Positions 7,299 through 64,000 of a DNA stretch of 64,000 bases are shown here, one piece after another; position 1 is the first letter of the stretch; every line of letters starts with the position of its first letter. The DNA is from Tricholoma matsutake. Its lineage: Eukaryota; Basidiomycota; Agaricomycetes; Agaricales; Tricholomataceae. The stretch is from the NCBI GenBank assembly GCA_026075535.2, contig AP026545.1, forward strand, positions 2,790,001 through 2,854,000, in the 5' to 3' direction. Both the position numbers and the translations under genes were made by a program. The notes beneath the pieces were generated by a model. It searched no databases, was not told the origin of the DNA, and saw only the letters and a list, made by a program, of their open reading frames with translations.

Positions 7299-7319
7299 TA
7301 GTGTTCAAGGGTCCAGTCC

Positions 7320-8030
7320 TGTTAAGAACTGATCCTAGAGGGCTCGTCGGAATCTGATCGGACACTGTGGGTGATAATAGTGGGGGTTGTCGGGTCGATG
7401 TGGATTCTGCAGGAGGGGAAACAGAAAGGACTTGGCTTCAGCTTGTAAGAAGCTGCGCCCTTCACCTCATCTGGTGTCCTAATTTCAAGTCAAAGGTCTG
7501 GAGGTAGGAGCAGGAAAGTGCGGGTAAATGTGGGGAGGAGGAGTACAGGGGGACTTAGGTTAAGTTCAGATGAGATTAGAACTTCAGAGGGAGACTAGAG
7601 GTCAAGTCAAATGGAGTTCAGACTCTTAGAGGACAGAGGTAGGAGTAGAATGAGATTTAGATTGACAAGTTAAAGTCGAGTCTATGTCGATATACGAACT
7701 GAGGAATACAAGGCAAAACTAACTAAACTTAAATACTAGAGTCCAGAATAAAAGTGGGACAGAAACGGGAACTGCGGCAGTGTCTCAACTGCGTAGATAA
7801 ATTACCTAGCGGAGGCTGCACAGGAATCCGTAGTTGAATTTGCAAAACTAGACAGCAGCCTTGGGAAGGCAGCCATGGATGCTGTACAAGGCGGCCTGGT
7901 GCACAGCAGTGTGGGCAGTGCAAGGCAGCTGGGAATGAAATTGGAAGGAGTAGACAAATGTTGGGTTAGACATGTGGGAAAGAGTCAGATGGAATGCGGG
8001 TTCCGATCTGGCGAGGAACAGTTCTTGACA
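7320..8030 (-). repeat. 3' LTR of the gypsy element
   Basis: The 711-bp LTR reads TGTTAAGAACTG at the left end and CAGTTCTTGACA at the right on the plus strand, forming the usual short inverted LTR termini. It is a direct repeat of 14342-15041 with scattered substitutions. It is the 3' LTR because gag and pol run on the minus strand. Confidence 0.92.
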
Positions 8031-11853: not shown

Positions 11854-12865
11854 GTGGGCTTTTCAGGGAGAGTCAAGGAGGTCAGAAATGAGAGGAAGGG
11901 GATAGCAGTCTTTCTTTGTAAGACAGTTGAGTCCTCGGTAGTCAACGCAAAGTCATAGGCTACCGTCCTTCTTCTTAACAAAGAGAATTGGAGTGCCATG
12001 CAGAGACTTAGAAGGGCAGATGAAACCTGAGTGAACATTTTCATCAATGAAGACTTGTAAGGCTTCTAATTCAGAGGGAGAGAGAATACATGCAGCCCAG
12101 AGGCAGAGGAGTGTTGTCTTCTGTCTCTATCTTGAGGTCATAAGACCGGTGCAGAGGAAGGGTGTCTGCTTTAGTCTTATTAAAGACATCAGCAAATTCA
12201 TGATACTTGGGTGGAATATCGGAAAGGTTGGATGAGTTAGCGGATTGGGCAGAGCGGGCAGATAACCCTTCTGGAGCGAAGGCCATCTGAAAAGCTACTG
12301 CCCCAGGAAGTTTGCTAGCATGCACATAAGCGGCAGCGTTGATGAAAGAGATGTCGGGGGGTGTAAACTTGGGAGGCATGGTGGGTTCGGAAAGTGTAGA
12401 GGAGTCAAGGATTTCTACCGGAAGGTTCGGGGGCAAAGGTGACATCAGGGGTGCTGGACCTCTATGATCTGCAGAGCGGAAAGCAAGTTGGCTTGAAGAC
12501 CAGTCAATCAACGGATTGTATTGCTTCAGCCAGTTATGACCAAGTACGGCGGAACAGGAAGAGTCGAGCAAGGTTACATAGAATGACAAATTGAACACTT
12601 CACCGGCAGGAAAGGTGATTGGAAGTTTGACGACCTGAGTTATGGTGGAGTTGCAAGATCCATCAAAGAGTCGTAAGCCAATCGGGTTAATGGATTCCAT
12701 GCTGAGTTGGTTATTCAACACAAAAGAGGAGTCAAGGAAGCAATGGGAGGAGCCAGAGTTGATAAGGGTTCGGAAAGGGGCAGAAGAGTCAGGAAAGGTT
12801 AAAAGAATGGTTAGGGAGTCAGGGTCAGAAAGAGCGGACGCATTGAGACAAACGTAGGCAGCCAA
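11838..12865 (-). pseudogene. gypsy aspartic protease and N-terminal RT region, catalytic Asp lost
   Basis: The 264-residue frame 12071-12865 holds a retropepsin-like domain. The active-site triplet D-S/T-G appears as N-S-G (in LINSGSS) and is followed by the usual hydrophobic strands and V-L-G-H-N-W-L. The change is again GAC to AAC at a CpG. The frame then enters the RT leader (Y-H-E-F-A-D-V-F, typical of gypsy RT) before reaching stops at about 11840-12070. In gypsy elements the protease cleaves Gag-Pol; here it is dead. Confidence 0.85.
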
Positions 12866-12921
12866 GTGGGTAAGGTCAATGCAACCCCCAGCCCCAATGG
12901 CTGTTTCCTGAGGGTTGCGGA

Positions 12922-14109
12922 CTATTTTTCCGAGTCCACAGATTCAGGAATCACAGCAGATGTGTGGGCTTTTGCGGCTTTAGATTTCAGGCAGTTTCCT
13001 GCTACATGCCCTTCTTCACCGCAGTAGAGACAAAGTCTTTCCCTCATGTAACGTTCTCGTTCTTCCGCAGTAAGTTTGCCGTTCTTCCCCAATTTATCAG
13101 AGATGGACAACTTGGAAGTGTTCTTTGTCGCGGAAGACTGCTGGTTGGAGGAGTTACCCCGAGCGGAGTTCGAAGAGGATTGATTGGTAGACTGGGAGGA
13201 ACTTTTGGGGGTGTCCTTCTTGACAGGGGTAGAAGAGTTTTTGGAATTCTTAGTTTCGAATTGGGTTTCATCCTCCTGCATCCACTAGATATTGTCACAG
13301 TCCTGCGCTTTCAAGTGCAGTTCTGCAAGGGTGTCGGGTTTACCACCCCAAAGGACTTCTATGCAAAGTTGGAGCGGAAGACCGTGGAAATAGTGGTCAC
13401 AGAGGGCTGCCTCATTCCAGTTGACCCTAGAAGCTAACTCCCAGAAGTCAACATTATACTTTGTAATGTGACCACCTTTTTTCATTGTTAAGTCGGAAAG
13501 GGCTTTTTCCGCATCCCCAACTGGGTCGTGCAGGCCAAAGTTGCTCTCTAGCTTGGCAAGGAAAGCTTCATAATCCCACATCCAGTGTGCAGAATCAGTT
13601 GGGTCATTAAGACCAGGTTCAAACCAACTGAGAGCTGATCCCTTGAGATAAGAAAGGATAAATATGATCTTTTTCTCATCAGAAGAAAATATGTGTGGAC
13701 AGTTGTGGAAATGAAGATTACACGAGACTAGGAAGTCTCTAAGTTTCTTTGGGTTGGAGCCATCGAAGGTGTCAGGGTCACGAACTTTGATTTTCTTGGT
13801 CTTGGGTGTGTTGTTTTGTTGGAGGGTGTGGATACTCTCTGAGAGGTTGTAAAGAACATCTATAAACCTATCCCCTGGATCAGGGTTTCCCCCTGCGGGA
13901 GGTTGATCATCAGGATCATTGGGATCAGGGTTGCCCCCAGGGCTGTCAGGACCACTAGGGTCATCGGGTCCGCCGGGAGGTCCGTCCTCTAGACCACAAT
14001 CTTCCAACCCATAGGGTTCAAACTGGTTGATGCCCCCTACGTACTCAAGGGGAGTTGTGGGTTGGGGTTCTTCTGGATTCGTCGGAGGTTGTTGGGCTTG
14101 AGTAGACAT
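12922..14109 (-). pseudogene. gypsy gag with CCHC zinc knuckle, one in-frame stop
   Basis: The ATG is at 14109. The acidic, Pro/Asp-rich N-terminus is followed by a retrotransposon gag domain (F-D-G-S, F-L-x-S-C, then W-F-E-P). The frame meets a TAG just before W-M-Q-E-D (about 13282-13284) and then continues to a nucleocapsid knuckle C-x2-C-x4-H-x4-C (CLYCGEEGHVAGNC), ending at 12922. The second gypsy copy (62756-63942) has Tyr at the stop position. Compared with that copy, this gag has several Arg to His, Gln, Cys or Trp changes, all at CpG sites. Confidence 0.9.
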
Positions 14110-14341
14110 GAGGCTTGCACTGATTGATGGGGCTCTGGAGCCAATTTGTCAGAAAATATTGGAAGGTCTGGAAGATACTCTGAATGTTGTGGTGGGTCGT
14201 GGGCTAGGAAGTGTAGATCGCTGAATTGCAGAGATCCCTGGAATGGTACCAGCACGCTGAGAGTTTCTAGTTGTGCGCTGGTGAGTTTCGGTTGGGATCA
14301 TAGGAGGAAAAGAGACAAGTGAAGTGTGAGTTCATATATAC

Positions 14342-15041
14342 TGTTAAGAACTGATCCTAGAGGGCTCGTCAGAATCTGATCGGACACTGTGGGTGATAAT
14401 AGCGGGGGTTGTTGGGTCGATGTGGATTCTGTGGGAGGGGAAACAGAAAGGACTTGGCTTCAGCTTGTAAGAAGCTGTGCCCTTCACCTCGTCTGGTGTC
14501 CTAATTTCAAGTCAAAGGTCTGGAGGTAGGAGCAGAAAAGTGTGGGTAAATGCGGGGAGGAGGAGTACAGGGGGACTTAGGTTAAGTTCAGATGAGATTA
14601 GAACTTCAGAGGGAGACTAGAGGTCAAGTCAAATGGAGTTCAGACTCTTAGAGGACAGAGGTAGGAGTAGAATGAGATTTAGATTGACAAGTTAAAGTCG
14701 AGTCTATGTCGATATATGAACTGAGGAATACAAGGCAAAACTAACTAAACTTAAATACTAGAGTCCGGAATAAAAGTGGGACAGAAACAGGAACTGCAGC
14801 AGTGTCTCAACTGCATAGATAAATTACCTAGCGGAGGCTGCACAGGAATCCATAGTTGAATTTGCAAAACTAGACGGCAGCCTTGGGAAGGCAGCCGTGG
14901 GTGCTGTACAAGGCGGCCTGGTGCACAGCAGTGTGGGCAGTGTGAGGCGGCTGGCAACGAAATCAGAAGGAGTAGACAAATGTTGGGTTAGACGTGCGGG
15001 AAAGAGTTGGACAGAATGCGGGTTCCGATCAGGCAAGGAAC
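14342..15041 (-). repeat. 5' LTR of the gypsy element, end-truncated
   Basis: A direct repeat of 7320-8030. It begins TGTTAAGAACTG but stops after GGAAC, directly followed by AGTCC and hAT sequence. The expected last 11 bases (AGTTCTTGACA) are missing. The shared AGT at the LTR end and in the target duplication would explain a microhomology deletion. Confidence 0.9.
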
Positions 15042-15768
15042 AGTCCATAGGACTGAAAAAAAGACCAAAATTGAACTGAATTGGACTGGAAAAGACTGGA
15101 CCAGTCTTTTTCAGTCCAGTTAGCAGTCTTTCCATTTTGAAAAATATTGTAAAACTGAAGAAAACTGGCCTCTGGTTCATGAAAAATGGTTAAGAACTGA
15201 GCAAGATATAACCAAATCCATTTTGGCATGAGTATTTTGTCATATCAGATTGACTTTCATTGCATCTTACTCATATGTTGATCATTTCCTTGATTACATT
15301 GATGAGCATAGGGCTAACATGTATTATAATACTCCTACCATCTGCCAATGCATGGTAGAAATCACATCATTTATGGTTGTCACATTACATTTCTTAGTGT
15401 TTGGCACGAGTCATTCATTAGATGTGATTTTATAGTGATCATATCCAAGTCAAATTTTGATGAAATCTCTTAAAAGCTAGACCAGACAATGGGGAATTAC
15501 AATGTCTATCCATCAGTGCAATGATTGTAAGGTCTGTATAATAGTTGCTAATATACATATGGGTTATATTGGTACAACAAATTTCACAACAAAATATTGG
15601 TCTGGACCAGTCTTAACTGGTTTTTTCAGGTCCATTAACCAGAAAGGACTGGTCCTAGGTGGTCCAGTTCAGTCCTCATGGTATCTGGGTCAGTTCTGGA
15701 CTGCTTTAGGTTGCAGTCTTTCCATTTTTGGGTCAAAAAACCAAACTGGACTGGACCCTCAAACACTA

Positions 15769-34049: not shown

Positions 34050-34900
34050 TTGGACCCAAAGGGAAACTAAGTCTCACGGTTCACTCCAACTACCAGCAAC
34101 CACCACTCCGTCTCCACCTGCCACCACTCTCATGCACACTGCTACAACAGCACCCTAGGGTAAGTTTTTTTTCCTTCGTTTTTTACTCAACTAATTAATT
34201 GTTTTTCTGCGTTATTTAGAAACCAAACTCCATCTCACGAAGGGTCTCGACGTGAACCAAGCTACCACACCAACGGTCGCCAAATCTCCCCTCCCTGTGC
34301 AAGTGGGATATGAGGGTGTTGATAAGGGTCGGGAGTGAGCAGGGGGATGCTGGGAGACCCCACAAGGGGATACCCACCCGGTGAGCACCCACGATACAAC
34401 ATCAGACTCAAACAAGCACCATGTACCCAGGATGATGAGGAATAGACCCAGGACCCCATGACAATGACAAAACAAAGAAGCCAGCACCAACGCCAGCAAA
34501 GGCACCAGCACCAGTACACCCAAACAACTGGAATCGACCCTGCAGGCCCCAGTGACACCCAAACAAGGCACCAAGGTCCAACCACAGCGACGAACAACAC
34601 ACCACCTGCCTCCAGCCCCATGAGCAACTGCTCATTGGGTGGATCGCGGGTGGAATGACAAGACAATGGGGCTGCCACAACATCGCGGGCGAATGGAGGA
34701 GGTGACAGATGATACCTACCAATGACACCAACGCCAACACACAACCCTGACATACAACTCCACGACGACGATGAATAGGGTGTAGCACAGGTATGGGTAA
34801 ACCTGCGGTAAATGGCCCACAGGTTTGATGGGTATGGGTACGGTTGCCGAAATGCCGGACCTGTGACATACCATACCTGTTTTGGTGGTGTCACAGGTAT
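34050..34900. mobile_element. Remnant of the hairpin-intron TIR family
   Basis: Shares three features with the elements at 56666-58695 and 60321-61829: a (CCACCA)-type CA-rich stretch, an intron-like unit at 34160-34219, and the phrase GAGCAACTGCTC followed by a GGGTGGA box (34622-34640, with GGTGGAATGAC). No terminal inverted repeats or tRNA-like ends are seen, so it is a fragment. A small set of GGTATGGGTA and ACCTGTG-type inverted motifs lies at 34790-34885. Confidence 0.6.
34160..34219 (+). other. Intron-like unit
   Basis: 60 nt: donor GTAAGT followed by eight T, CTAAT-type branch sequence, acceptor TTATTTAG. It matches the units in the other family copies. No coding sequence flanks it. 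Confidence 0.6.
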
Positions 34901-38067: not shown

Positions 38068-39489
38068 TGACACAACAGATAGAACAAGGTTTTAACCAAG
38101 GGGGTGTCAGCACACAAATGCCAGACATCATGTGGGGGGCAGGGGGGTATCATGTAGGTTGTTAAAAAAAATTGACGTCAAATTATATAAGTGTAAATTG
38201 AGTGGTATAGCATGTAAAGGAAGTAAAATTACATTGTCATATATCTTTGAAGCAACCTAGACAAAGATGAAGAGCAAAACCATTGAACTTTGATGGCAAA
38301 CTCAACTCCACACTGATGGCTCAAATATAATAATATTGAACTCATAACAAGGATTGTGCAATTGCAAAGTTGATGCAGTTCTATGCTTGTCTGGACTCAG
38401 TGTAATTCCAAGGTAGACAAAGCCCCTCACAGACCACTGGCCTTCAAGCAACTTGTCACACAAGCAATGTGTAGGTAGGCATAATAATTTTAACTACTCA
38501 CAGTATGGGGTTCATCGGTCCATATACATGGAAGAACTCATGGTGGTAGAAATGAGGTAGAAAATAATCACAACCTAGCCCACTTATATACCTCCACAGA
38601 AGCTGATGAGGTTCAAGACCTTGAGGCTGAGGAGACTCTGAAGGAATGCTCACTTAGCCTTGGCCCTTGACACTTGTTCTCACTTGAAGAATACTTACCT
38701 GAGTACTTGGCTGAGTGAGAGTCAGTAGATGCATTTTGCTACTCCAACAAGGTTTGTACAATGTATGTGAACAGACCATGACTGCAATTCTAGGTCAAGG
38801 AGAGTGGTTCACTGTTTCACAATAATTTAGTAAAATTAACAAATTGGTTGACATCAAATTAGTAAGCACAACATACCATATATGGGAATAACATACCCAA
38901 TATGGCAGGAGGGGGGTGGGGAGGGGGATCTGAGAGGTGGCTTAAAAAAAAACTGAGTGGATATATGAATTTTGGGTCCTGACACCCCTTGGTTTTAACA
39001 CAGGTAAAATGATGAGAAAATGATGTCAAAATGATCCTTTTTATCAATGTAAAGTCTAGTATAAAATAAGGAAAAAAAGAATATTTTTAAGTCAGAGGAA
39101 AAGAGTCTTTTTCTCCAGGTGAAAACATAGTCAAAATACATCTAAAATGTGTCTGAAATGATGCTGAAATGATGAAGAAATAATTCATTTTCAATATATT
39201 TGTACTTGTTTTTCTCCACATTTCTTCCTGGAGAAAAGGTTAGTGAAAGCAAGTACAAATATAGTAAAAATGAATCATTTCTTCATCATTTCAGCATCAT
39301 TTCAGACACATTTTAGATGCCCTTTGACCATGTTTTCACCTGGAGAAAAAGAATATTTTCCTCTGACTTAAAAGTACTCTTTTTTTCCTTATTTTATACT
39401 GGACTTTACATTGATAAAAAGGATCATTTTGACATTGTTTTCTCATCATTTTACCTGTGTCAAAACCTTGTTCTGTTTGTTGTGTGAGT
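38068..39489. mobile_element. Palindromic (fold-back) MITE, split by a hAT-like insertion
   Basis: The outer arms ACACAACAGATAGAACAAGG (38070 on) and their inverted partner (CCTTGTTCTGTTTGTTGTGT, to 39485) continue through the inner arms 39000-39210 and 39240-39460 (ACAGGTAAAATGATG and CATCATTTTACCTGT). Only about 25 bases of spacer lie at the centre near 39222. Without the 895-bp insert it is about 520 bp. It interrupts the transposon-associated gene between 38067 and 39516. Confidence 0.8.
38097..38991. mobile_element. hAT-like non-autonomous element with exact 8-bp target duplication
   Basis: Ends CAAGGGGGTGTCAG and CTGACACCCCTTG (one-base length difference), flanked on both sides by GTTTTAAC (38089-38096 and 38992-38999). 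An 8-bp duplication with short TIRs indicates the hAT superfamily. The interior is AT-rich with no coding frame. Removing it restores the outer palindrome arm. Confidence 0.88.
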
Positions 39490-42011: not shown

Positions 42012-42609
42012 TAGCTATTGTGCACAGCGGGTGGAGGTTGAGAAAAACTCGAAGCACCAATCACATGACTCAACCACATCAGAATTCTACTCTGCAAAAC
42101 GTCTGTACACTACGCTTGCACCTCTCTTGTCTACCTCCACAAACTTGCAATGTGTAGTGTTGGGTCAGTTCCCCATGAAGGCCAAGCCAATCATAGCTCC
42201 CCTGGTAGGGGCCTAGGGCAGAGGCCTGGGGAGTTGTGGAGCACAGATCATGAGGTCTTTGTCCTCCCCCACGTATTCCTGGAGGAATCCTGGAGGATTA
42301 TTGGGAACCAATGTTCCAGCCATTTGTGACCCAAGTATATATTCCTGGCTCTTCCCATTCCAGGGGGATTCCTGGTTGATTCCTGGTAAATTACACTCTT
42401 CCAGGAGGAATTCCTGGAATTCCACAGGACTCTGGTACCAGGAATCCACCAGGACTCTCAGAACTCTACCAGGACTCTAACAGGAATCCAGTAGGACTCA
42501 CCAGGAATCCACCAGGACTCTACCAGGACTCTACCAGGAAGCCACTGGGACTCCACTGGGATTTAACCAGGAGTCTTTATTACTACTAAGTAATAAAATA
42601 AATGTCATG

Positions 42610-42680
42610 AGCCAGAATTGAACCCTCAGCATTAGATGACAACATCATAGCACAGCAAATATAACCACTACACCACATAG
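42610..42680 (-). other. tRNA-like sequence, facing outward (left)
   Basis: On the minus strand an A-box-like GTGTAGTGGTTA is followed about 45 bases later by a B-box-like GGTTCAATTCTG. No acceptor-stem pairing or CCA context makes a functional tRNA credible, so I call it tRNA-like. Confidence 0.6.
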
Positions 42681-43056
42681 ATTTCCAATGCATATCCACT
42701 AACTGCTCTAGGTACCATTGGGGCAGCTGTGCATGACAAAGCACACAGCCGTGTCACCAACACTGCTCATCAACCATCACCACCACTCTCAATGATGCCA
42801 CTGCCTCACCCTCCTCTCCACTCTACCACCACCACCACTGCATGGACACCCACTGCCACCACTCCCATGCCCATGCCGCCATCACCACCACCTGCAAACA
42901 AGCCGACTGGACGGAATGCAGGCCCAAACGCCTCACATGAGACACAAGCAATGTAGTTAATAAATTTTGTTTGATCTTAATTGTGAGCTTCAAGAGAGAA
43001 ATACCTGGGTTTGGATTTGAGTGCATAAATACACTTTATATTAGTAACTAATAATT

Positions 43057-43142
43057 CTCCTGTGGCTCAACTGGTTGAGCACACTTGTTTGGTTTGTCAT
43101 GTGATCCATGATCATGAGGTCTAGAGCTCAATCCCTGCTCTG
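43057..43142 (+). other. tRNA-like sequence, facing outward (right)
   Basis: Plus strand: CTCCTGTGGCTCAACTGGTT (A box and D-arm-like) and, about 65 bases on, AGCTCAATCCCTG (B-box-like). Its counterpart at 58346-58430 has the better B box GGTTCAATCCC. Confidence 0.6.
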
Positions 43143-43577
43143 AACATATCTGTTTTGTAGGCACTTTGTGAAATTCATGAAGTCCGAAGCACTTGAAACT
43201 TGTAAGATATCAAATTGACTTTCCATTATAGTTTGACTTTAGGGTACTACAATGTACTAGGAATCCTGGTGAGTCCCACTGAATTCCTGGTGAGTCCCAT
43301 TGGATTCCTCCAGGACTCTGTGGGGGAGTGTAAAGTTCTGTCCCCTGGCCATCTCGCTCTCCTGTCCCCATTCTTCTCCCTCCCGAACCACCCCACAAGC
43401 AGATGCTCATAGGCATGGGGTGGGTGTCATTGTGGGTGTCCCCACTCTTGTTGTCATCTCCCTTCCCTCTCATCTCCCTTCCCCCTCGTCTCTTCCCCCT
43501 CACCTTCCACCCTGCAAGCAGGGGCTCGCAGCAGTGGTGGTGGTGGTGTCATCGTCATTCCCAGTAGTAGTTTGTAC

Positions 43578-43633
43578 CTATAAAAAGTTAGTTAGCATCA
43601 AAAAATGAAATGAGAAAAGAAAAAAAAACTTAC
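43578..43633 (-). other. Intron-like unit with adjacent 12-bp hairpin
   Basis: 56 nt on the minus strand: GTAAGT plus poly-T, GCTAACTAAC, ending TTTTTATAG. Five bases before the donor lies a perfect hairpin, GACCCAAGAGAC with GTCTCTTGGGTC (43638-43667). Confidence 0.7.
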
Positions 43634-43928
43634 CTAGGACCCAAGAGACATTGACGTCTCTTGGGTCTCCCCTAATCATCATCGTTCCACCCATCATCAT
43701 TCCCTGCCATTGTCGTCATTCCACCCACCATCCACCCCACAAGCAGTTGCTTGTGAGGCTAGAGGCGGGTGGTGTGTCCTGCGTGGTGGGCATGAGGGCT
43801 GGGGGTGGGGGCTTGTTCTGTTGGGGTAGCCATTCTTGTTGTTTCAAAGCACCCATTCCCACCCTGCAAGCAGCTGCTCACGGCAGTGATTCTGAGTGCT
43901 CCTTGTTGTCAGCAGTACTAGATAATAC

Positions 43929-43972
43929 CTAAAAAAGTTTGTTAGTAACAAAAACAAGAAAAAAAAACTTAC
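43929..43972 (-). other. Intron-like unit
   Basis: 44 nt on the minus strand: GTAAGT plus nine T, TTACTAACAA, ending TTTTTTAG. The upstream side holds AGCCCAAGAGACG only once, so the hairpin is half lost. Confidence 0.6.
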
Positions 43973-44261
43973 CAACAGCCCAAGAGACGCCTTTTCTTCA
44001 TTTGCTTTGCCTTCCTTTCATTGTTTCCCACTCGTCCCCTCGTCATTCCATCTCCCAGTCCCAGTCGTCTCCAGTTGCCTCGTTGCGTTGTTGTTCCATT
44101 TGGCCAAGTCGGCGTCGCCATTGTCCTGCCATTTTGCAGTTGTACCCATTCCCACCCTTTGAGCAGTTGCTTGTGGTGGTGGTTCTGGGTCCTAGGGTGG
44201 TGGCTGTGTCAACTGTTGTCGTGGTTTTGAGGCTGCAGCATCATTATAACATAGATAAAAC

Positions 44262-44325
44262 CTATCATTAAGGAAAATTCAGTTAGTTAAACAAAACAAC
44301 AAAAATCATGTAAAAAAACACTTAC
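44262..44325 (-). other. Intron-like unit with adjacent hairpin
   Basis: 64 nt on the minus strand: GTAAGT, poly-T, TTAACTAACTG, ending AATGATAG. A perfect hairpin of GAGCCCAAACAA with TTGTTTGGGCTC (about 44330-44361) lies just upstream of the donor. Confidence 0.68.
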
Positions 44326-44502
44326 AAGTGAGCCCAAACAACAATGCCATTGTTTGGGCTCATTCCCATTGTTGGTTATTGGGGTAGGAGGTAAGGAGGA
44401 GGCAGCACCATTGCCAGCATTGTTGATGACATGGCTGTGTTGATTTGTCATCACAGCCGGGGCGGTACATAGAGAGATATAACTACTTATCTGTAATGAT
44501 GC

Positions 44503-44578
44503 TTTAGTCTAACTGTTATATCACTGCCTTAATTGTACTTTATCATGTGACTATGAGGGTTCAATCCCTGTGGTAGCC
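44503..44578 (+). other. tRNA-like sequence, facing outward
   Basis: Plus strand: A-box-like TTTAGTCTAACTGTTA and B-box-like GGGTTCAATCCCTG (44557-44570). It lies about 105 bases inside the terminus at 44682. Confidence 0.62.
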
Positions 44579-44682
44579 ACTGATTTTTCAGTCAATTATA
44601 TAAGCAACTCAGACAGTCCTAGGACTGTCTGAGTGTCTGAGCAGAGTCTGCTCGGATTGGAGGGGGGGAGTGTAAAGACCTC

Positions 44683-47795: not shown

Positions 47796-48130
47796 ACAAT
47801 CTATAGCTGCAGTCAACTTATCTAACCCTGACCATCTTACCTAGTACCACTGCTACCGCATTATCAATAGCATTGCTGCCCTAATTTTAGCACTTCTGCT
47901 TATCCTCATGGTGATCTATTTAGGGTTAGCATACTGGTGAAAACTATATGGATTTTGTAAAAATGCATAAGATATGTACTTGGTCGGCATCTCTTTAGCA
48001 ATCACATAGGTGGGGGCCACAATGTAGTAATAGTGCTTACATAGTAAAATGGAAATGGATAAAATTGACAGTATACTGGTGTGACATATGTCACTCAATT
48101 CTGCTTTTTGACCAGGCTGTCGCTATGGTA
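47796..48130. other. Non-coding stretch
   Basis: AT-rich, no gene visible. It ends at the TA target of the small MITE. Confidence 0.4.
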
Positions 48131-48356
48131 CAGCTGATATCATGTCGATGGTCCCCTTCACAACAGCCTCTATTTAGTTGTTGTTTGGTTCTATCAGCAA
48201 TAGAACTCTATATGCCGATGAGCCAAGTACGTGGCAAAGTTGCACCTGTATCTTGCTTCATAGGGGCTCGGCATGGGGTTCATCACTGATATGTAGAACC
48301 AAACAAACAACTAAACAGAGGTGTTGTGCAGGGGCCTATTGACATGATATCAGCTG
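48131..48356. mobile_element. Tc1/mariner-like MITE (226 bp)
   Basis: Starts CAGCTGATATCATGTC and ends with its inverted partner GACATGATATCAGCTG. The arms remain complementary for about 65 bases. It is flanked by TA on both sides (48129-48130 and 48357-48358). TA-flanked elements with long inverted repeats are typical of Tc1/mariner MITEs. Confidence 0.75.
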
Positions 48357-48641
48357 TAATCATTCCCAGAGCTCAGCCCCAGTAAGGAACCCATGTATTA
48401 GCAAACATTTTCAATCATTGATTCACATTAAAACTATTTCCTCCCATTCACACCTATTAATGTCTCTTTAATCATAATGATTGTTCCATCAAACCTTCGC
48501 TCAATGGCCAATTTTCATCTCAATGAATGAAGTTCATTCCAACTCATTACATAACACAACTTTTCAAAACTTCAACACCACTGAGTATCTGATCCATGCT
48601 ACCACATGTTACAATTTTCCTTGTAACTCATGGAACCCAAT

Positions 48642-49297: not shown

Positions 49298-52200
49298 GCA
49301 GAATCTGCTGCTCAGCGCGCTCTCCGCAAGCAACATGAACAGATAGCTCAAGATGAATCTTTTGCTGATTTCCTTGCCAGCCACAACCAAGAAGTACCCT
49401 GGACTCAAGCATTCAAATCCTGACACAAATGTCAAGCAACAGCACGTAAGACCAAGGCATAATCCGGGGACTGTGCAGGATGGTGTATCAGTGAGCTACC
49501 ACTGCGGTGGATCAGATCCAATCTTGTATAAAACTTGAACCCTGCAGTCAAATGGTGACCAAGTTAATCTCAGCGGACTTGGAGAACCTCTTCTACGAGG
49601 GCCGGGTCAACCCACTGGTGGCAATCAGATTCCACCAAATGATCCTGGCCAACGTTCTCCTGATACTGGCAACCTGTTCCCACCTGAGCAAAACACGAAC
49701 CATGATGATCAGGCTCCAACACCTGGACTAGATGCCCATATAGATGAACTGCAAATTACAGCCCAATTCATTGAGGGTCTCCAGACTGCAACACTTGAGA
49801 ACAGTAACATGCACGAGGAAGATATTCAATGTTTGCATGATCCACCGTCCGACTTCCCAGAAGAGATTACAGATCGACACTTCCTTAAAGCATTAAGAAT
49901 GTTCATCTTGACCACGAATGCTTCAGAGGCAATGTACAATGGTGTTTGGGCAGCTTCTCAGGCCTGTTACCTGGATGACCCTTTCCTTTCGTTTGATCAA
50001 GTGAAACACAAGCTTGAAATGCTTACTGGAGTAGTGCCAATAATGCACAACATGTGTATCGACACGTGTGCTGCATTCACAGGCCCATTCACGCCACTCA
50101 ATGCCTGCCCCAAATGTTCAAAGTCTCAATATCATCCTGGAATGAGGAAACCTCAGCGGCAATTCCTGACCATCCCCATCAGCCCAGTCCTTCAGGCGCT
50201 TTATCATTCGGAAGAAACCGCTGAACAAATGCACTATTTGGAGTGCATCACTGAACAGATCCTCAAGGACATCGAGAAGAATGGGGGGATAGTTGAGGAA
50301 TACAATGACACTGCATGTGGCATGCACAACCTGAATGCTTGGCATACGGGGCAGATCAAGAAAGGTGATGTATTACTACAATTGTCTCAATGGCGCACAG
50401 CTTTACTGCGACAAGGAGTCCGACTGTTGGATCTTCATCTATGTTATCCACAATCTTTCTCCTGATCTGCAATACAAAAAATGATTTGTTATTCCAGGTG
50501 GATTCATATCTGGACCGAACAAGCCAAAACATGGTGACTTGTATATCTATCCATCGCTCTATCACATTTCGGCTCTACAACAAGAAGGCTTACAGATTTG
50601 GGATGCCTCAACTTGCTCATATGTTACAAACTCGACTCCTTTTATCATGCTAGCTACTGTAGATGGGCCTGCGATGGTGAGCATGACAGGGATGGTTGGT
50701 CATAGTGGAAAATATGGATGCCACCTATACTGTGGACTTTCAGGGCGTTGTCGAGAAGGGGACTGCCACTATTATCCACTTATGCAAAAACCCAATAACT
50801 ACAGCATTGCAGGTTGCGACCACCCAGATATCACTTTCAGGCAGCTTCAGCATTTTCGTCAAGAATCAGAAACTTGTTATAATGACAACCTCAAGTACCT
50901 TCTTGCATCCCAAAATCTATCCCAATACAATGCTCGGCGACTGTCTACTGGCTTGTGCAAGCAAACAATCTTCAGTGGACTCCGTTGTAGCCTTGGTGTA
51001 CCAAATATATTTGTCATGGACTTGATGCATCTCATGGTGCTCAACGACCCTGATCTTTTACTTGGCTTGTGGTGTGGCACAGTAAAGTGTTACCTACCCG
51101 ACACCAAGGCTAGTTGGGACTGGAACATTTTAGTTGGGAAGATATGGGATACTCATGGGAAGACTGTCGCAATGGCCAAGCAATTTCTTCCATCCTCATT
51201 CAGGCAAGTTCCTCGCAACCCCGCTGAAAAGATGAACTCTGGCTACAAAGCATGGGAGTACTTGCTGTATCTGTTCAGCTTGGGGCCTGCATTGCTTCGT
51301 CATATTCTTCCTGAGAAATATTGGCAAAATTTCTGCAAGATCGCTCAGGGAATTCAGTTATTGTACCAGTGCAAGCTTTCTCCGGAGCACATCAAAGATG
51401 GAAATCAGTTGCTTTGTGAGTTTCATAAAGAGTTTGAGGAGCTTTACATCCAACGACGTCCAGACCGAATTCACTTCCTTCGACACAGCATCCACCTACT
51501 CACCCACATTGCGCCGGAGACAATTCATGCAGGACCTCTGGGGTGTTATGCTCAATGGACCATGGAGACAGCAATTGGCAATCTGGGAGAGGAGATACAT
51601 CAGGATAAAGATCCATATGCTAATATTTCTCAACAGGGGCTTCTCCATGCACAAATCAACTCACTTGTTGCCATGATGCCTGATGTCCTGCTCTCGGAAG
51701 ACAAATCAGGCGCAATACCTTGTGGCAGCAGGGACCTGGGGGATGGCTATGTGCTGTTAAGGGCATGTCAGCCTACTGCCATCAACATTTCGGAACCAGA
51801 AGTGACCGCGATCATGAAGCTGTGGGATGCAAAAGGTTGGCCAAATAGAGATTGCTGGCCTCGAGCAGTACGGCGATGGGCACGTCTCCAACTTCCTAAT
51901 GGGCAAATTGTGCATTCATATTGGATGGAATCTCGATCACTGCAGGAACTCCAAAGGACTACAGTAGTAAAGGTACATATCTTTGCCGCTTAATATCTGA
52001 TGACACCTGCTTGAACTTGCATTTTGCAGTTTTGTCTCAGTGGCCACTCCAAAATTGCTGAAGTCCGATACTTCTTTCGCTTGAAGTTTGGGGAACTCAT
52101 CCAGACACTGGCAGTTGCCTCTGTGTTGTCACCTCCTGATCAGGAGCTACTTGACCTTTCTCATCAAGCTGTGTATGCAAGTCACTATCGAGGAGATGAC

Positions 52201-56616: not shown

Positions 56617-56984
56617 TAGTGTTTGAAGGTCCGGTACATAGGACTGAAAAAAAGACTGAAACTGGGAGGTCTTTACACTCCCCCCCATATTCCTATAGGA
56701 ATCCAATGATTCCGATGATTCCAATTGGAGTCCGATTGGAATCCAACCATATTCCGATGTCATTTTCACCAGCCAAATTGACATGAAATGGCAGGTTCAG
56801 TCCTAGTCCAGTCCAATGCAGTCTGATCAGAATCCAATTGGACCATCGGAATTTCCTAGGAATTTCTGACCATTGGAATCACATAGGAATATTCCGAGGT
56901 TATGCAGAGACATCGGACAACATAGGATTCTGATAGGAATGATAGCAGCATTGCTTAGTAATAGTAGAAAAAGTAGAAACACAT

Positions 56985-57058
56985 GACAGAATTGAACCCC
57001 AGAGCTCTAATATGATTACATAAACTTACAGTAACAACAAGACCACTACACTAAGTGG
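56985..57058 (-). other. tRNA-like sequence, facing outward (left)
   Basis: Minus strand: TTAGTGTAGTGGTC (A-box-like) and GGGGTTCAATTCTG (B-box-like), about 50 bases apart. It is close to the sequences at 42610-42680 and 60647-60714. Confidence 0.62.
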
Positions 57059-57295
57059 TCATTGCAGGTATGTGCTTGTACTGCACTACATACCATTCCC
57101 GTGGGTGTGATGACAAAGCACAAAGCCATGTCACCACACCTGCCAGCTCATCATTCTCCCACCACCACCACCACCAACGACGACGACAATGACGACAGCC
57201 GCCTCCCCACCTCAACCACCACCACCACCACCATGCCCACTCCCACTCCCACTCCCATGCCGTCAAGAGGGGCCAATGGCCATCAACGGACACAA

Positions 57296-57329
57296 GCAGC
57301 CCAAACGACGGAATCGTCGTTTGGGCTGC
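57296..57329. repeat. 15-bp perfect hairpin next to a splice donor
   Basis: GCAGCCCAAACGACG, loop GAAT, then CGTCGTTTGGGCTGC. One base later a GTAAGT donor begins. Confidence 0.9.
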
Positions 57330-57330
57330 G

Positions 57331-57399
57331 GTAAGTTTTTTTTTTTTCCCTTCGTTTCTTGTTTTCTAAACTAACTAACATCTTTCTTTTGTTTTTTAG
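57331..57399 (+). other. Intron-like unit
   Basis: 69 nt: GTAAGT plus poly-T, CTAACTAACA, ending GTTTTTTAG. Confidence 0.7.
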
Positions 57400-57476
57400 G
57401 TCCTAAACTACAGGGTAACAATGGACGGACAGACGGACTCGCCCAAATGACGCAATCTGCATCGTTTGGGCCCTAG

Positions 57477-57538
57477 GCAAGTTTTTTTTTTCCCTTTGAT
57501 TTTGAGTTTACACTAACTGTTTTTCTTTCATCTTCTAG
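57477..57538 (+). other. Intron-like unit with GC donor
   Basis: 62 nt: GCAAGT plus poly-T, CACTAACTG, ending ATCTTCTAG. It is preceded by CCCAAATGACG and CATCGTTTGGGCC, an imperfect form of the hairpin. Confidence 0.62.
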
Positions 57539-57639
57539 GTTCTAAGCTGTTGGTAACAGCAGAGGGACGCAAGATGACCCTGACAATGCCGCCAGGGCCC
57601 CACCATGAACACCCATGGAGACAAAGAGGGACGGGGAGG

Positions 57640-57780
57640 GAGACAAGGAAGTGATGATGACAACGACAACAACAGGGAGGGGGAGACGAGAAGGTGGAGG
57701 GGGAGACGAGAAGGTGGAGGGGGAGACAAGAGGGTGGAGGGTGGAGGGGGAGATGAGGGGAAGGCGACGGGCACCAGCAC
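57640..57780. repeat. GGAGGGGGAGAC tandem repeats
   Basis: GAAGGTGGAGGGGGAGACGA-type units repeat three to four times with variation. The open frames on both strands here are products of the repeat and not genes. Confidence 0.75.
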
Positions 57781-58345
57781 TGGACAAGATGAGGGTGGCA
57801 AGGGACGACAAGGGGGGGACGACAAGGGGGTGGGGATGACAAGACACCCCAAATGACACACCACTCACCACCAGCCTCGCGAGCAACTGCTCGTGGGGTG
57901 GACAGTGGGTGGAATGACGACAAGGAGGGGGAGACAAGGGAGGAGGAGATGAGGGACACACAGGGGACACCACGCCACCACCATGAGCATCTGCTTATGG
58001 GGTGGATTGTGGGGTCTACGAGAAGGAGACGGCGCCCCAACACCCGAACCCCACTGCTGCGAGCTTTGCTCGTAGGGTGGAACGGGTGCTAATGGCCATG
58101 TCACCACCTCCCGCAAAATGGGGGGGGTGGTTTTTGTTTTTGTAGAATTTTAAATAGTATAATTAATTGTCTCCCCCCTGCGTTTGCGTTGGGGGGTATT
58201 TTTTCAATCTATATTAGTTATATTAGTTCCTCGCATCTTCACGAGGGCTAATCAATTTTCTTTTGAGCTCTTGTGAGGGAGGTTAAAAATATGTGAACTA
58301 TCCCTAAGTGCATTAAATGGACTTTGTATTACATGTTTAATAATT

Positions 58346-58430
58346 CTCCTGTGGCTCAACTGGTTGAGTGCTTGTTTAGTCATCATGTGACTTACATCCC
58401 ATGGTCCATGGTTCAATCCCTGCTTTACCC
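58346..58430 (+). other. tRNA-like sequence, facing outward (right)
   Basis: Plus strand: CTCCTGTGGCTCAACTGGTT, then GGTTCAATCCCTGC, about 65 bases apart. The B box matches the GGTTCNANYCC consensus. It is close to 43057-43142. Confidence 0.66.
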
Positions 58431-59639
58431 ACTTATTTTGTAAGCACTTGGGGAAAGTTTAAGTCTTCCAAAATGTGGTAGTCTGACTTCATGTTGGAAT
58501 TGCATAGGACTTTACTAGGAATTTACTAGGAATTTCTTGGAAACAACAGTACATGGTCATCAAGATACATTCCGATCGGACTACTAGGACTAGTGTCAGA
58601 CTAGTAGGACTCCTATCGGATTCCGATTGGACTCTTATCAGAAAACTCGGACTCCTAGGACTCTGATAAGAATACGGGGGGGAGTGCAAAGTTTATGAAA
58701 CTGGACTGAACTGGACCGATTAGGACCGGACCAGCAGTCTATTTATGGACTGGTCTTTTGCAGTCCAGTTGCAGGTCTTTCATTTTGAGAAATAATGTAG
58801 GACCACAAAAAGACTGGTTTAAACCCGTTGCAACCGGTTAAGCGTCACGTGCGCTACATGACCATGTAAACATGATTATTACCTTTAATTTGACCTTTGG
58901 TTCATCAAAAACGGTCAAGAATTGAGAAAGATATGACCAAATTCATTTTGGTACAAGTTTTTTTTTTTGTTCAACTTGTATCAGAATCACTTTGATTCTA
59001 ACTCACTCATATTTTGATCATTTTGCTTCATTATATTTTTTGGATATGGAGATTTTATGTAGGTAAATATGCTCACCATCCATCAATGTAAGATATGCCT
59101 CACATAACTGATGGTTGTCACATTCCATTTTGCCCACATCTTTAGCAGAGGTAATTCGGTTTCAGTCATAGCTACATCAAATCTTCATTAAATCTCTTAA
59201 AAATTGGATCAAAAGCCGGGTATTTACAAGCTCTATCATGTTAAATTATCCTTTAAAGGTTCCGAGTACTGATTGTTGAGATACAGATGGCCTATATTAG
59301 CATGACAAATTTTACATCAAAAAACCGGTCCAAACCAGTCTTTTTCCAGTCCATTAACCGAAAAAGACCGGTCCTAGGTGGTCCAGTTCAGTCCCCCCAA
59401 TATCTGGGTCGGTCCTGGACCGGTTGCAGTTGCGGTTGCCCTATTTGGAAGTCAAAAAACCGGACTGGACCGGACTTTTGAACACTAATCCTTGGGATGG
59501 GCTCCTGCAAAGTGCCATCTTGGTCTTGGTGAGTTCTCAAGCCCTAAACATGTGACCTACTAATTTTTACCTTCCTGAAGGCCTATAAATACATATTCAC
59601 ATCACTGAGTTCAGTTGAAAAGGAACCCAAGGCCACACG

Positions 59640-60069: not shown

Positions 60070-60646
60070 TTATCCAATGTTTTGGACATGTATGCCAATG
60101 AGATAATATTTCCCATCATAAATTTGCTCCCTTTGCTCCCTTTGCATCATGAGCAAGTGTTGTTACTTTCCCAGTGTCATCTGCCTGTATTATAGTTCTT
60201 CTGCCAGAGACAGTGTCTCCAATACTTCACAGGATATCTCTGTCTGAATACCACATATCCAGGTCATCCAGGAACTCAATAAAAGTGCAACCCTTGCTAT
60301 TTTTCTGCTTGGTGATCTTGGAGGTCTTTGTCCTCCCCCACGTATTCCTGGAGGAATCCTGGAGGATTATTGGGAACCAATGTTCCAGCCATTTGTGACT
60401 CAAGTATATATTCCTGGCTCTTCCCATTCCAGGGGGATTCCTGGTTGATTCCTGGTAAATTACACTCTTCCAGGAGGAATTCCTGGAATTCCCCAGGACT
60501 CTGGTACCAGGAATCCACCAGGACTCTCAGGACTCTACCAGGACTCTACCAGGAATCCAGTGGGACTTGCCAGGAATCCACTGGGACTCCACTGGGATTT
60601 AACCAGGAGTCTTTATCACTACTAAGTAATAAAATAAATGTCATGA

Positions 60647-60714
60647 GCCAGAATTGAACCCTCAGCATTAGATGACAACATTATAGCACAGCCAATATGA
60701 CCACTACACCACAT
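60647..60714 (-). other. tRNA-like sequence, facing outward (left)
   Basis: Nearly identical to 42610-42680: minus-strand A-box-like GTGTAGTGGTCA and B-box-like GGTTCAATTCTG. Confidence 0.6.
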
Positions 60715-60959
60715 AGATTTACAATGTATATCCACTAACTGCTCTAGGTACCATTGGGGTGGCTGTGCATGACAAAGCACACAGCCACGTCATCAACACT
60801 GCCAGCTCATCAACCATCACCACCAGTCTCAATGACGCTGCTGCCTCTCCCTCCTCTCCACTCTACCACCACCACCACTGTGTGGACACCCACTGCCACC
60901 ACTCCCATGCCCATGCCGCCATCACCACCACCTGCAAATGAGCCGACTGGATGGAATGC

Positions 60960-61646
60960 GGGCCCAAACAATGCAGATCGCATTGTTTGGGGCCTAAGTA
61001 TGTTTTTTTTTGTTTGCTCTTTGTTTTTTTATACTAACTAACTTGTTTCATTTGTTTTATGGGTTCTACTCTACTGCCAGACAGAACATGGGCCCAAATG
61101 ACGTGATTGGACAGAACACAGGCCCAAATGATGCAGATCATGTCGTTTGGGCCTAAGTAAGTTTTTTTTGTTTGCTTTTTGTTTTTATATACTAACTAAC
61201 TTGTTTCTTTTGTTTTATAGGTTCCCAGATGGAACAGGGGCCCAAACGACGTGATTGGACGGAACACAGGCCCAAATGATGCAGATCGCGTCATTTGGGC
61301 CCTAAGTAAGTTTTTTTTTGTTTGCTTTTTGTTTTTATAAACTAACTAACTTGTTTCTTTTGTTTTATAGGTTCTACTCTACTGCCAGATGGAACATGGG
61401 CCCAAATGACGTGATTGGATGGAGCGCAGGCTCAAACGATGCAGATCACGTCATTTGGGCCCTAAGTAAGTTTTTTTTTGTTTGCTTTTTGTTTTTATAA
61501 ACTAACTAACTCATTTCTTTTGTTTTATAGGTTCTACTCTACTGGTAACGATGGCAAACGAGCCGACTGGATGGGCCCTACATAATTTTTTTTTTGTTTG
61601 CTTTTTGTTTTTATAAACTAAGTAACTCGTTTCTTTTGTTTTATAG
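60960..61646 (+). repeat. Tandem array of hairpin plus intron-like units
   Basis: Five units. Introns: 60998-61062 (acceptor changed to TATGG), 61157-61220, 61306-61370, 61466-61530 and a last one with a broken donor ending at 61646. The three intact ones are 64-65 nt with GTAAGT, poly-T, ACTAACTAAC and TTTTATAG. Each spacer carries GGCCCAAA(C/T)GA(C/T)G and its inverted partner C(G/A)TC(A/G)TTTGGGCC directly before the donor, and starts GTTCTACTCTACTG after the acceptor. Unit length is about 95-160 bases. Confidence 0.88.
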
Positions 61647-61829
61647 GTTCTACTCTACTGGCAATGACGGCCGGACACAAGACAACCCAACACACCCACC
61701 CCACACCTGCAAGCCTCTGCTCGTAGGGTGGATCGTGAGTGTGTGCAGTTGACAACAATGACGATGCCACTGCCTACCAGCACCAGAACCCCAAGAACGC
61801 GAAGCATGGCTGCCAACCATGACAGATGA

Positions 61830-62526
61830 TGTCACGATCCATTCCTTGCCTGCTCGGAACCCGCAACCTTCCGATCTTTTCCACTGTTCCTAACTCAACT
61901 CCTACCACCTTCGTTCCGGCCCCCTTGCACTGCCCACACTGCTGTGCACCAGGCTGCCGTGTACAGCAACCACGGCTGCCTTCCAAGGCTGCCGTCTAGT
62001 TTTGCAAATTCGACTACGGATTCCTGTGCGGCCTCCGCTAGGCAATTTATCTATGCAGTTGAGACACTGCTGCAGTTTCCGTTTCCATTCTGCTCTTGTT
62101 CCGGACTCTAGTATTTAAGCTTAGTTAGTTTTGCTTTGTATTCCTCAGTTCGTATATCGACATAGACTCGACTTTACCCTGTCAATCTAAAACCTCCTTC
62201 TACTCCAACTCCTGACCTCTAAGAGTCTGAACTCCATTCGACTCAACCTCTAGTTCCCCTCTGAAGTTCTAGTCTCATCTGAACTTAACCTAAGTCCCTC
62301 CGTACTCCTTCCCACATTTACCCGCACTCTCCCGCCCCTATCTCTAAAACCTCTACTCGAAATTAGGACACCAGACGAGGTGAAGGGTGCAGCTTCTTAC
62401 AAGCTGAAGCCAAGTCCTTTTCGTTACCCATCCACATAATCTGCTATGACCCGACAATCTTCTGCTCTCAAAGACCCGCCGGGTCCGACCGGATTCCAAC
62501 GAACCCTTTCGGATCAGTTCTTAACA
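61830..62526 (+). repeat. 5' LTR of a second copy of the first gypsy family
   Basis: 697 bp, starting TGTCACGATCC and ending CAGTTCTTAACA; the reverse-complement counterpart of the LTRs at 7320 and 14342. The leader that follows (GTATATATGAACTCACAC) is shared with the first copy. Gag follows on the plus strand. Confidence 0.88.
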
Positions 62527-62755
62527 GTATATATGAACTCACACTTCACTCATCTCTTCTCCTATGACCCCAACCGAAACTCACCAGTGCACAACCAGAA
62601 ACTCTCAGCGCACCGGTACCATTCCAGGGATCTCAGCAATTCAGCGATCCACACTTCCTAGCCCATGACCCACCTCAACATTCGGAGTAACTTCCAGACC
62701 TTCCAACATTTTCTGACAAATCGGTTTCGGAGCCCCATCAGTCAGTGCAAACCTC

Positions 62756-63942
62756 ATGTCTACTCAAGCTCAACAATCTCCCACAAATCCGGAAGAACCC
62801 CAACCCATGACTCCCCTTGAGTATGTAGGGGGCATCAACCAGCCTGAACCCTATGGGTTGGAAGATCATGGTCTAGAGGATGGACCTCCCGGCGGACCCG
62901 ACGACCCTAGTGGTCCGGACGGCCCTGGGGGTGACCCCGATCCCAATGATCCTGATGATCAACCTCCTGCGGGGGAAAACCCTGATCCAGGGGATAGGTT
63001 CATAGATGTTCTTTACAACCTCTTGGAGAGTATCCGCACCCTCCAACAAAATAACGCACCCAAGACCAAGAAGATCAAAGTTCGCGACCCTGACACCTTT
63101 GATGGCTCCAACCCAAAGAAACTTAGAGACTTCCTAGTCTCGTGTAACCTTCATTTCTGTGACCATCCACATGTATTTTCTTCTGATGAGAAAAAGATCA
63201 TATTTATCCTTTCTTATCTCAAGGGATCAGCTCTCAGCTGGTTTGAGCCCAGTCTTAACGACCCAACTGATTCCGCACACTGGATGTGGGATTATGGGGC
63301 CTTCTCGCTGAACTAGAGAGTAACTTTGGCCTGCATGACCCGCTCAGGGATGCAGAAAAAGCTCTTTCTGATTTAGCAATGAAGAAAAGTGGTCGCATCA
63401 CAAAGTATAACGTTGACTTTTGGGAATTAGCTTCTAGGGTCAACTGGAATGAGGCAGCCCTCCATGATCGCTATTTCCGCGGTCTTCCACTCCGACTTCG
63501 TATAGAAGTCCTTCGGGGTGGTAAACCCGACACCCTTGCAGGACTGTGCTTGAAGGCGCAGGACTGTGACAATATCTACTGGATGCAGGAAGATGAAACC
63601 CGGTTCGAAACTAAGAATTCCAGGAACTCTTCTAACCCTGTCAAGAAGGACAACCCCAAAGGTTCCTCCCAGTCCACCAATCAATCCTTGTCAAGCTCCC
63701 CTGGGGGAAACTCCTCCAACCAGCAGCCCTCCACGACAAAGAACACTTCCAAGTCGTCCATCTCTGACAAGTTGGGGAAGAATGGCAAACTTACTGCGGA
63801 TGAACGAGAACATTGCATGCGGGAAAGACTTTGCCTCTACTGCAGTGAAGAAGGGCACATAGCAGGAAACTGCCCGAAGTCTAAAGCCGCAAAGGCCTGC
63901 ACATCCACTGTAATTCCCGATTCTGCGGACTCGGAAAAATAG
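62756..63942 (+). pseudogene. gag of the second gypsy copy, one frameshift
   Basis: ATG at 62756, the same Pro/Asp-rich start and capsid domain as 12922-14109. A short deletion at about 63292-63305 (GGGGCCTTCTCGCTGAACTAG) shifts the frame. The second frame continues to the CCHC knuckle CLYCSEEGHIAGNC and ends TAG at 63942. It keeps Arg at many sites where the first copy has His, Gln, Cys or Trp. The element continues past the end of the window, so pol is not visible. Confidence 0.9.
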
Positions 63943-64000
63943 TCCGCAACCCTCAGGATACAGCCATTGGGGCTGAGGGTTGTGTTGACCTTACCCACTT

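Follow-up and report, generated by a model that had tools for sequence, protein, structure and literature searches.

We propose that a family of KDZ (Kyakuja-Dileera-Zisupton) satellites, a word that we use here for non-autonomous DNA transposons, carries a predicted gene for a spliced and structured non-coding RNA, and on balance this seems the probable reading. Conserved splice signals, a fixed gap between hairpin and donor and the same-strand order of two structured motifs together point to a spliced transcript. The evidence was drawn from a 64,000-nucleotide window of the matsutake genome (the whole stretch of DNA that was analysed), from sampled loci outside it and from searches over the assembly.

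Hairpin-intron units in the window

A scan of the window revealed a tandem repeat at 60961-61544, with a period of 160 and 3.7 copies, inside an element designated C. Searching the window for the hairpin arm, donor and T-run with no more than three mismatches returned seven matches, against 0.05 expected. The array of element C comprises the following units:

60960-61062, forward strand: unit 1; hairpin followed by donor GTATGT at 60998; the acceptor has mutated to TGG (61060-61062)
61121-61220, forward strand: unit 2; hairpin 61121-61153, intron 61157-61220, all signals present
61269-61370, forward strand: unit 3; hairpin 61269-61301, intron 61306-61370, all signals present
61429-61530, forward strand: unit 4; hairpin 61429-61461 (one arm GGCTC), intron 61466-61530, all signals present
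61582-61646, forward strand: unit 5; donor and palindrome both lost

An earlier, sequence-only reading of this DNA had described five repeats, three of them with every splicing signal. Five units are indeed there, but not all are full, given the losses in unit 5 and the TGG in place of the unit 1 acceptor. The three complete introns stand as described, with GTAAGT, ACTAACTAAC and TATAG all present in units 2-4. Further units were located in elements B and A2:

57296-57399, forward strand: element B unit 1; 15-bp perfect stem (57296-57329), intron 57331-57399
57441-57538, forward strand: element B unit 2; palindrome 57441-57472, donor GCAAGT at 57477, acceptor TAG
44262-44362, reverse strand: A2 unit; 15-bp stem, intron 44325-44262
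43578-43667, reverse strand: A2 unit; stem GACCCAAGAGACG/TGTCTCTTGGGTC, intron 43633-43578
43929-43972, reverse strand: A2 intron-like sequence without hairpin, read 43972-43929

Here too the earlier description was accurate, both for the two minus-strand units, with their introns, and for the 57296-57329 stem, which is perfect over 15 bp and ends one base ahead of the donor at 57331.

Copy number and sampling

Genome-wide counts were exact matches over the assembly (161,040,721 bases in 13 contigs), with the reversed pattern as control. This yielded 5,101 matches to GGCCCAAAYGAYG (control 4), 4,080 palindromes of the form GGCCCAAA-N8-30-TTTGGGCC (control 0) and 1,460 instances of arm followed by donor, TTTGGGCC-N0-12-GTAAGTNNTTTT (control 0). 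Reversed-pattern controls for the words counted in this study gave 4, 0, 0, 0, 0 and 0 matches, and chance or low complexity was accordingly rejected.

The sample consisted of 20 loci of 10 kb (picked by a 13-mer) and 20 of 0.7 kb (picked by palindrome), all from contig 1, together with the window, amounting to 276,040 bases from 41 sources. It contained 64 palindromes, which were taken without use of splice motifs and oriented by T-richness. Loci L001-L008, which overlap L009-L013, were left out of the counts, as were outer palindromes enclosing an inner one. The same hairpins were seen on contig C1 at ~860923, 957472 and 1052065 and at 878301, 974900 and 1066125, in steps of ~91 to 97 kb such as tandem segmental duplication would give.

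Conservation of the splice signals

Donor, branch point and acceptor were all intact on the T-rich side of 40 of the 64 palindromes, compared with 1/64 on the opposite side, and the gap from GGGC to the donor was 5 nt in 30 of the 40 intact units. Individual copies thus decay. In eight of the remaining palindromes the donor position reads CATAAGT, the change expected from CpG decay of CGTAAGT. GATAAGT was found in the donor place of seven units at six loci (L009 3766, L013 4262, L025 5002, L032 344, L035 323, L045 196 and 348), and these perhaps form one subfamily that multiplied after loss of the donor GT; provided that they share a common founder, the spread of such donor-less units over six loci suggests that splicing is not strictly needed for spread. 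By eye, intron-like sequence adjoins 63 of the 64 palindromes, after correction of L034_203, for which T-richness gave the wrong orientation and the donor lies on the other side. The exception, L048 303, has GGGCC arms, a GC-rich loop and the same outer arms, with no adjoining intron.

Conservation was measured on 37 palindromes in 21 clusters, as mean pairwise identity between the 21 representatives over hand-set column ranges. Identity was highest in the hairpin arms (0.94 and 0.96), followed by the acceptor at 0.90, the donor at 0.85, the T-run at 0.79 and the branch point at 0.77; values were 0.67 for the first three exon bases, 0.55 for the intron body, 0.54 from branch point to acceptor, 0.35 for the spacer, and 0.32 and 0.31 for the upstream and downstream exons. 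The sequence-only reading had named, as an outcome that would count against it, splice motifs no better conserved than their flanks; across diverged copies the signals exceed both the intron body and the flanks. Donor, branch point and acceptor accordingly stand in the order of a spliceosomal intron and are conserved above their surroundings.

Introns were also picked by their signals alone (55, reduced to 31 representatives). A strong stem near the donor was present in 18/31, compared with 0/31 after shuffling, a share that is not genome-wide because the loci were picked by left arm. The hairpin that had been claimed at the 5' splice site is supported.

Among 21 internal exons, length modulo 3 left a remainder of 2 for ten, 1 for seven and 0 for four, with one stop-free frame in 16 exons and none in 5; the earliest acceptor was taken, and some exons are 8 or 17 nt too long. 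With lengths mixed and 5/21 lacking an open frame, a protein-coding interior was rejected and the interior read as non-coding, albeit not by a strong test.

A second structured motif

A second motif folds into three stems (outer, middle and inner), the inner one capped by a loop of four bases. Its core, GAGCAACTGCTCRTGGGGTGG, has 2,393 exact copies genome-wide (control 0), and the following matches lie in the elements of the window:

61711-61731, forward strand: element C, variant AAGCCTCTGCTCGTAGGGTGG
57881-57901, forward strand: element B, core
57985-58005, forward strand: element B, core
58061-58080, forward strand: element B, core
43859-43879, reverse strand: A2, core
43507-43527, reverse strand: A2, core
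43388-43408, reverse strand: A2, core

Among 38 copies from the ten-kb loci and the window, 37 lie on the same strand as the nearest unit (34 downstream, 3 upstream), none on the opposite strand and one without a unit nearby; for 8 unit entries, no second motif was found within 2.5 kb. An intron-like sequence without a hairpin at 34160-34219 of the window, 0.4 kb ahead of a second-motif copy (34622-34642), is probably a worn relative.

The predicted structure appears to covary on most measures, judging from the aligned copies. The covariation score over the 38 copies was 0.258, versus 0.180 in shuffled sets (0 of 500 as high) and 0.06-0.12 in slid structures, and cells changed on both sides numbered 45 versus 19.8 shuffled (0 of 500). 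The number of pair types was 30 versus 26.6 (31 of 500), and pairs with a two-sided change showed no excess (9 versus 8.2 shuffled, 220 of 500). Of the 11 pairs returned by RNAalifold, 2 have two-sided changes. Part of the inner stem was set by the search expression itself and is thus forced, so that support comes from the outer helix and from the pairs left free, chiefly 31-48 and 32-47.

Pairing in RNA or in DNA

Stem differences between subfamilies are two-sided: AGCCC/GGGCT or GACCC/GGGTC replaces GGCCC/GGGCC, AAGAGA/TCTCTT replaces AAACGA/TCGTTT, and the outer pairs GCA/TGC and TGA/TCA alternate. Within the commonest stem type, the inner positions vary in a CpG-like manner and without covariation; pair 7 was doubly changed six times, about what the margins predict. 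The earlier statement that stems change while pairing is kept therefore holds between subfamilies but not for the inner changes within the commonest type, where single copies decay. G-U outnumbers A-C by 40 to 19 in the unit stem (our sum over four pairs in 34 palindromes), an excess that sits in the left arm, can come from strand-biased CpG change and is not decisive. In the second motif the excess is weak: ten pairs give 40 to 20, which falls to 22 to 17 once the CpG pair is left out.

These observations bear on a DNA-level alternative, in which the palindromes and the second motif are transposase or host-factor sites and the intron part is a co-multiplied, unspliced relic. The top rank of the arms among all columns, the symmetry of the palindromes in DNA, the weak excess of G-U over A-C and the donor-less variant at several loci would all suit such cargo. 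It does not, however, predict a donor, branch point and acceptor kept beside a drifting intron body, nor the one-sided placement of the intron (40/64 versus 1/64), and we regard it as possible, albeit unlikely.

The transposon

Nine elements were found with correctly oriented ends on both sides, namely GAGGTCTTTACACTCCCCC on the left and CAGTACTTTACAGTCCCCC on the right (in the inward direction), or variants of these. An 8-bp target duplication flanks eight of the nine, perfect in five and matching at 7 of 8 positions in three; A1 is the one element without a matching duplication. The eight measure 1,750-4,418 bp, and the longest stop-to-stop frame in any of them is 276 codons. Genome-wide, the left-end word has 1,011 copies and the right-end word 348 (controls 0). 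Features of the family in the window are listed below:

60321-61829, forward strand: element C, a non-autonomous TIR element that contains the five-unit array and lacks its right part, being interrupted by another repeat from 61830 onward
60321-60339, forward strand: GAGGTCTTTGTCCTCCCCC, the left TIR of element C, with 3 mismatches relative to the commonest form
60651-60711, reverse strand: A-box/B-box-like pair of element C, pointing outward (motif match)
56666-58696, forward strand: element B, complete non-autonomous element of 2,031 bp
56658-56665, forward strand: left copy of the element B target duplication, GAAACTGG
58697-58704, forward strand: right copy of the element B target duplication, GAAACTGG
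58352-58420, forward strand: A-box/B-box-like pair of element B, pointing outward (motif match)
43341-44682, reverse strand: element A2, left end 44664-44682; right end not identified
42252-43340, forward strand: element A1, both ends, without a matching target duplication or a complete unit

Inverted ends and target duplications agree with the earlier assignment of the units to a TIR transposon family. They speak against its further suggestion of a mobile, introner-like cassette, what inserts being the whole TIR element. Nor does the anatomy fit an element that is spliced out of host transcripts, as had also been suggested: single introns would be removed and the hairpins and intervening exons would stay in the RNA, so that the element would not be cleared.

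For the left end of element C, 39 other copies were 92-99% identical (40 of 410 candidates scored), which suggests recent movement. Twenty further copies of this subfamily, next in score order, contained 0 to 5 detected units each and 56 in all, with a donor in 41, a hairpin in 41 and all three signals in 40. A donor was present in 36/41 units with a hairpin versus 5/15 without one, an association that is only suggestive because of shared ancestry. An exact-match search of the genome with one pattern for the intron-less joint gave no match; the copies have therefore probably spread as DNA, and retroposition via spliced RNA was rejected on the result of this single pattern.

A KDZ-coding partner

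An element of 6.3 kb (L049 543-6814) has the same two ends as the satellites and is flanked by TTTAAAGT/TTTAAAGC, a 7-of-8 target duplication. It codes for CxC5 (E=1.8e-30), with a CxC6 match just under the cut-off (26.9 versus 27.5 bits); in L051, CxC6 is above the cut-off (E=3.7e-10). Both domains are named by Pfam as associated with KDZ transposases, and CxC5 has at least 163 matches genome-wide, 150 out of 405 candidates having been scored. For L051 no left end was found; L052 and L053 have both ends by motif, with no matching flanks. No KDZ catalytic domain was detected in 4 of 11 frames of L049 or 4 of 8 of L051; one (PF18758, E=2.8e-34) lies at L018 3363-4031 on the reverse strand, directly beyond the left TIR of an element that carries units. 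According to an excerpt of PMC12730594, target duplications are 8 bp in Zisupton and Dileera and 7 bp in Kyakuja, which is without TIRs. With TIRs and an 8-bp duplication, the satellites fit Zisupton or Dileera rather than Kyakuja.

Neither the unit nor the second motif was found in the four KDZ loci (L049, L051, L052, L053), and detected similarity between L049 and the satellites is limited to the ends. The four loci do have a T-rich intron in the 5' leader, after CCCAAGCTTCTGGG or a close variant, and this intron, along with the variation in unit number among the 20 copies of one left-end subfamily, would be in keeping with a unit that began as a KDZ-gene leader intron and was tandemly duplicated, its signals kept by recent ancestry instead of selection. 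We consider such an origin very unlikely, as L049 resembles the satellites at its ends only, the leader intron has no GGCCCAAA palindrome, and drift leaves unexplained why signals exceed intron bodies in conservation across diverged subfamilies. That each hairpin-intron unit moves alone and makes new host-gene introns, as arrays of near-identical units that keep every splice signal might suggest and as introners elsewhere often have target duplications or TIRs (excerpt of PMC9860276), is highly improbable, given that TIRs and target duplication belong to the whole element, that the units are in tandem inside it and that none lay in a recognisable host gene among 16 scanned of 96 long frames from the 20 ten-kb loci, a small test.

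Known RNA families and other features of the window

A-box/B-box-like pairs also lie near both ends of L049, pointing outward (~800-890, reverse strand; 6390-6470, forward strand). ARAGORN found no tRNA in the window, and Rfam gave no tRNA there at gathering score, nor on L024, L026 and L028 (E up to 5) or L049 (E up to 1). A tRNA-derived (SINE-like) element was rejected, as the matches are limited to A/B-box-like pairs without a tRNA gene model. No known RNA family matched the window at the Rfam gathering score; below it, three unrelated matches were obtained in L024, L026 and L028 and two microRNA models in L049. At the right end of the KDZ-coding element (L049 6669-6768, forward strand), mir-998 scored 33 of 52 bits (E=0.0013), below threshold.

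Elsewhere in the window, 316-1474 and 1855-2986 form a large inverted repeat, with arms of ~1.16 kb that are 95% identical and contain repeats, and 38991-39467 and 48129-48358 match their own reverse complements (90% and 74%). A match to Transposase_21 (tnp2) at 50485-51993 on the forward strand is weak and falls short of its cut-off (E=0.00015). One long repeat has copies at 7319-8030, 12864-15044 and 61830-64000, the last of which cuts element C; to our eye, its frames look retroelement-like.

Proposed mechanism

Under the preferred reading of a spliced non-coding RNA, the unit strand would be transcribed and spliced into a structured RNA, and the satellite would be moved in trans by the KDZ transposase. 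In Cryptococcus, introns have a cumulative positive effect on expression, and transposon RNAs that are poorly spliced are fed into an RNAi pathway (excerpts of PMC5851062 and PMC3744415); splicing is also reported there to increase RNA accumulation and export. By analogy, splicing may raise the accumulation and export of the satellite RNA, allowing near-consensus introns to persist in active lineages, and good splicing may avoid the RNAi that poorly spliced transposon RNAs trigger in that basidiomycete; having several near-consensus introns would benefit a satellite dependent on its RNA. The stem, ending a few bases short of the donor, could leave the U1-pairing exon bases free and so present the 5' splice site.

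A fuller version, which we offer tentatively and hold to be rather doubtful, is that of a selfish non-coding RNA gene in which stem-marked tandem introns boost expression and escape splicing-coupled RNAi, and in which the mature RNA, with two conserved kinds of stem-loop, aids spread, e.g. by binding the transposase or a host factor.

Significance

Non-autonomous DNA transposons are usually viewed as shells between two ends. A non-coding interior in which splice signals and stem-loops are retained amid otherwise drifting sequence suggests an RNA under selection. The system bears on part of the 25.4% unclassified repeats of the matsutake genome (excerpt of PMC10211490) and on whether transposons evade splicing-coupled RNAi by adjusting their introns. 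With thousands of copies damaged to different degrees in donor, stem, branch point or acceptor, the family amounts to a natural mutation series on how splicing responds to a structure next to the 5' splice site, and a donor-marking stem present in thousands of copies in one genome would, if true, be a new form of 5' splice-site definition.

Comparison with known systems

MITEs and other non-autonomous TIR elements have no coding capacity, TIRs, a target duplication of fixed length and a high copy number. The satellites share all of these traits, but are larger (1,750-4,418 bp in the eight measured), have short and imperfect TIRs, and differ in an interior that is ordered, strand-specific and equipped with splice signals. 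No such element was described in the part of the open-licence literature consulted on introners, intron-bearing non-autonomous elements, megB1 and KDZ MITEs. The megB1 element is dimeric and Alu-like and, in an excerpt of PMC10627285, is described with a copy outside rRNA genes in this section of the genus; it is therefore not this high-copy family.

With KDZ elements the satellites have in common TIRs and 8-bp target duplications (excerpt of PMC12730594), as well as the ends of an element coding for CxC5/CxC6; unlike them, they are without a transposase, and their interior consists of hairpin-intron units and the second structured motif. Introners likewise are repeated spliceosomal introns linked to transposons (excerpt of PMC9860276; see also PMC4457414), whereas the satellite intron lies inside the transposon between hairpin exons, and the ends are TIRs, not splice sites. 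A parallel may also be drawn with Cryptococcus, another case of basidiomycete transposon introns, where splicing may decide silencing (excerpt of PMC5851062); the transposon transcripts described there are poorly spliced, whereas the satellites are non-coding and combine near-consensus introns with a stem at the donor.
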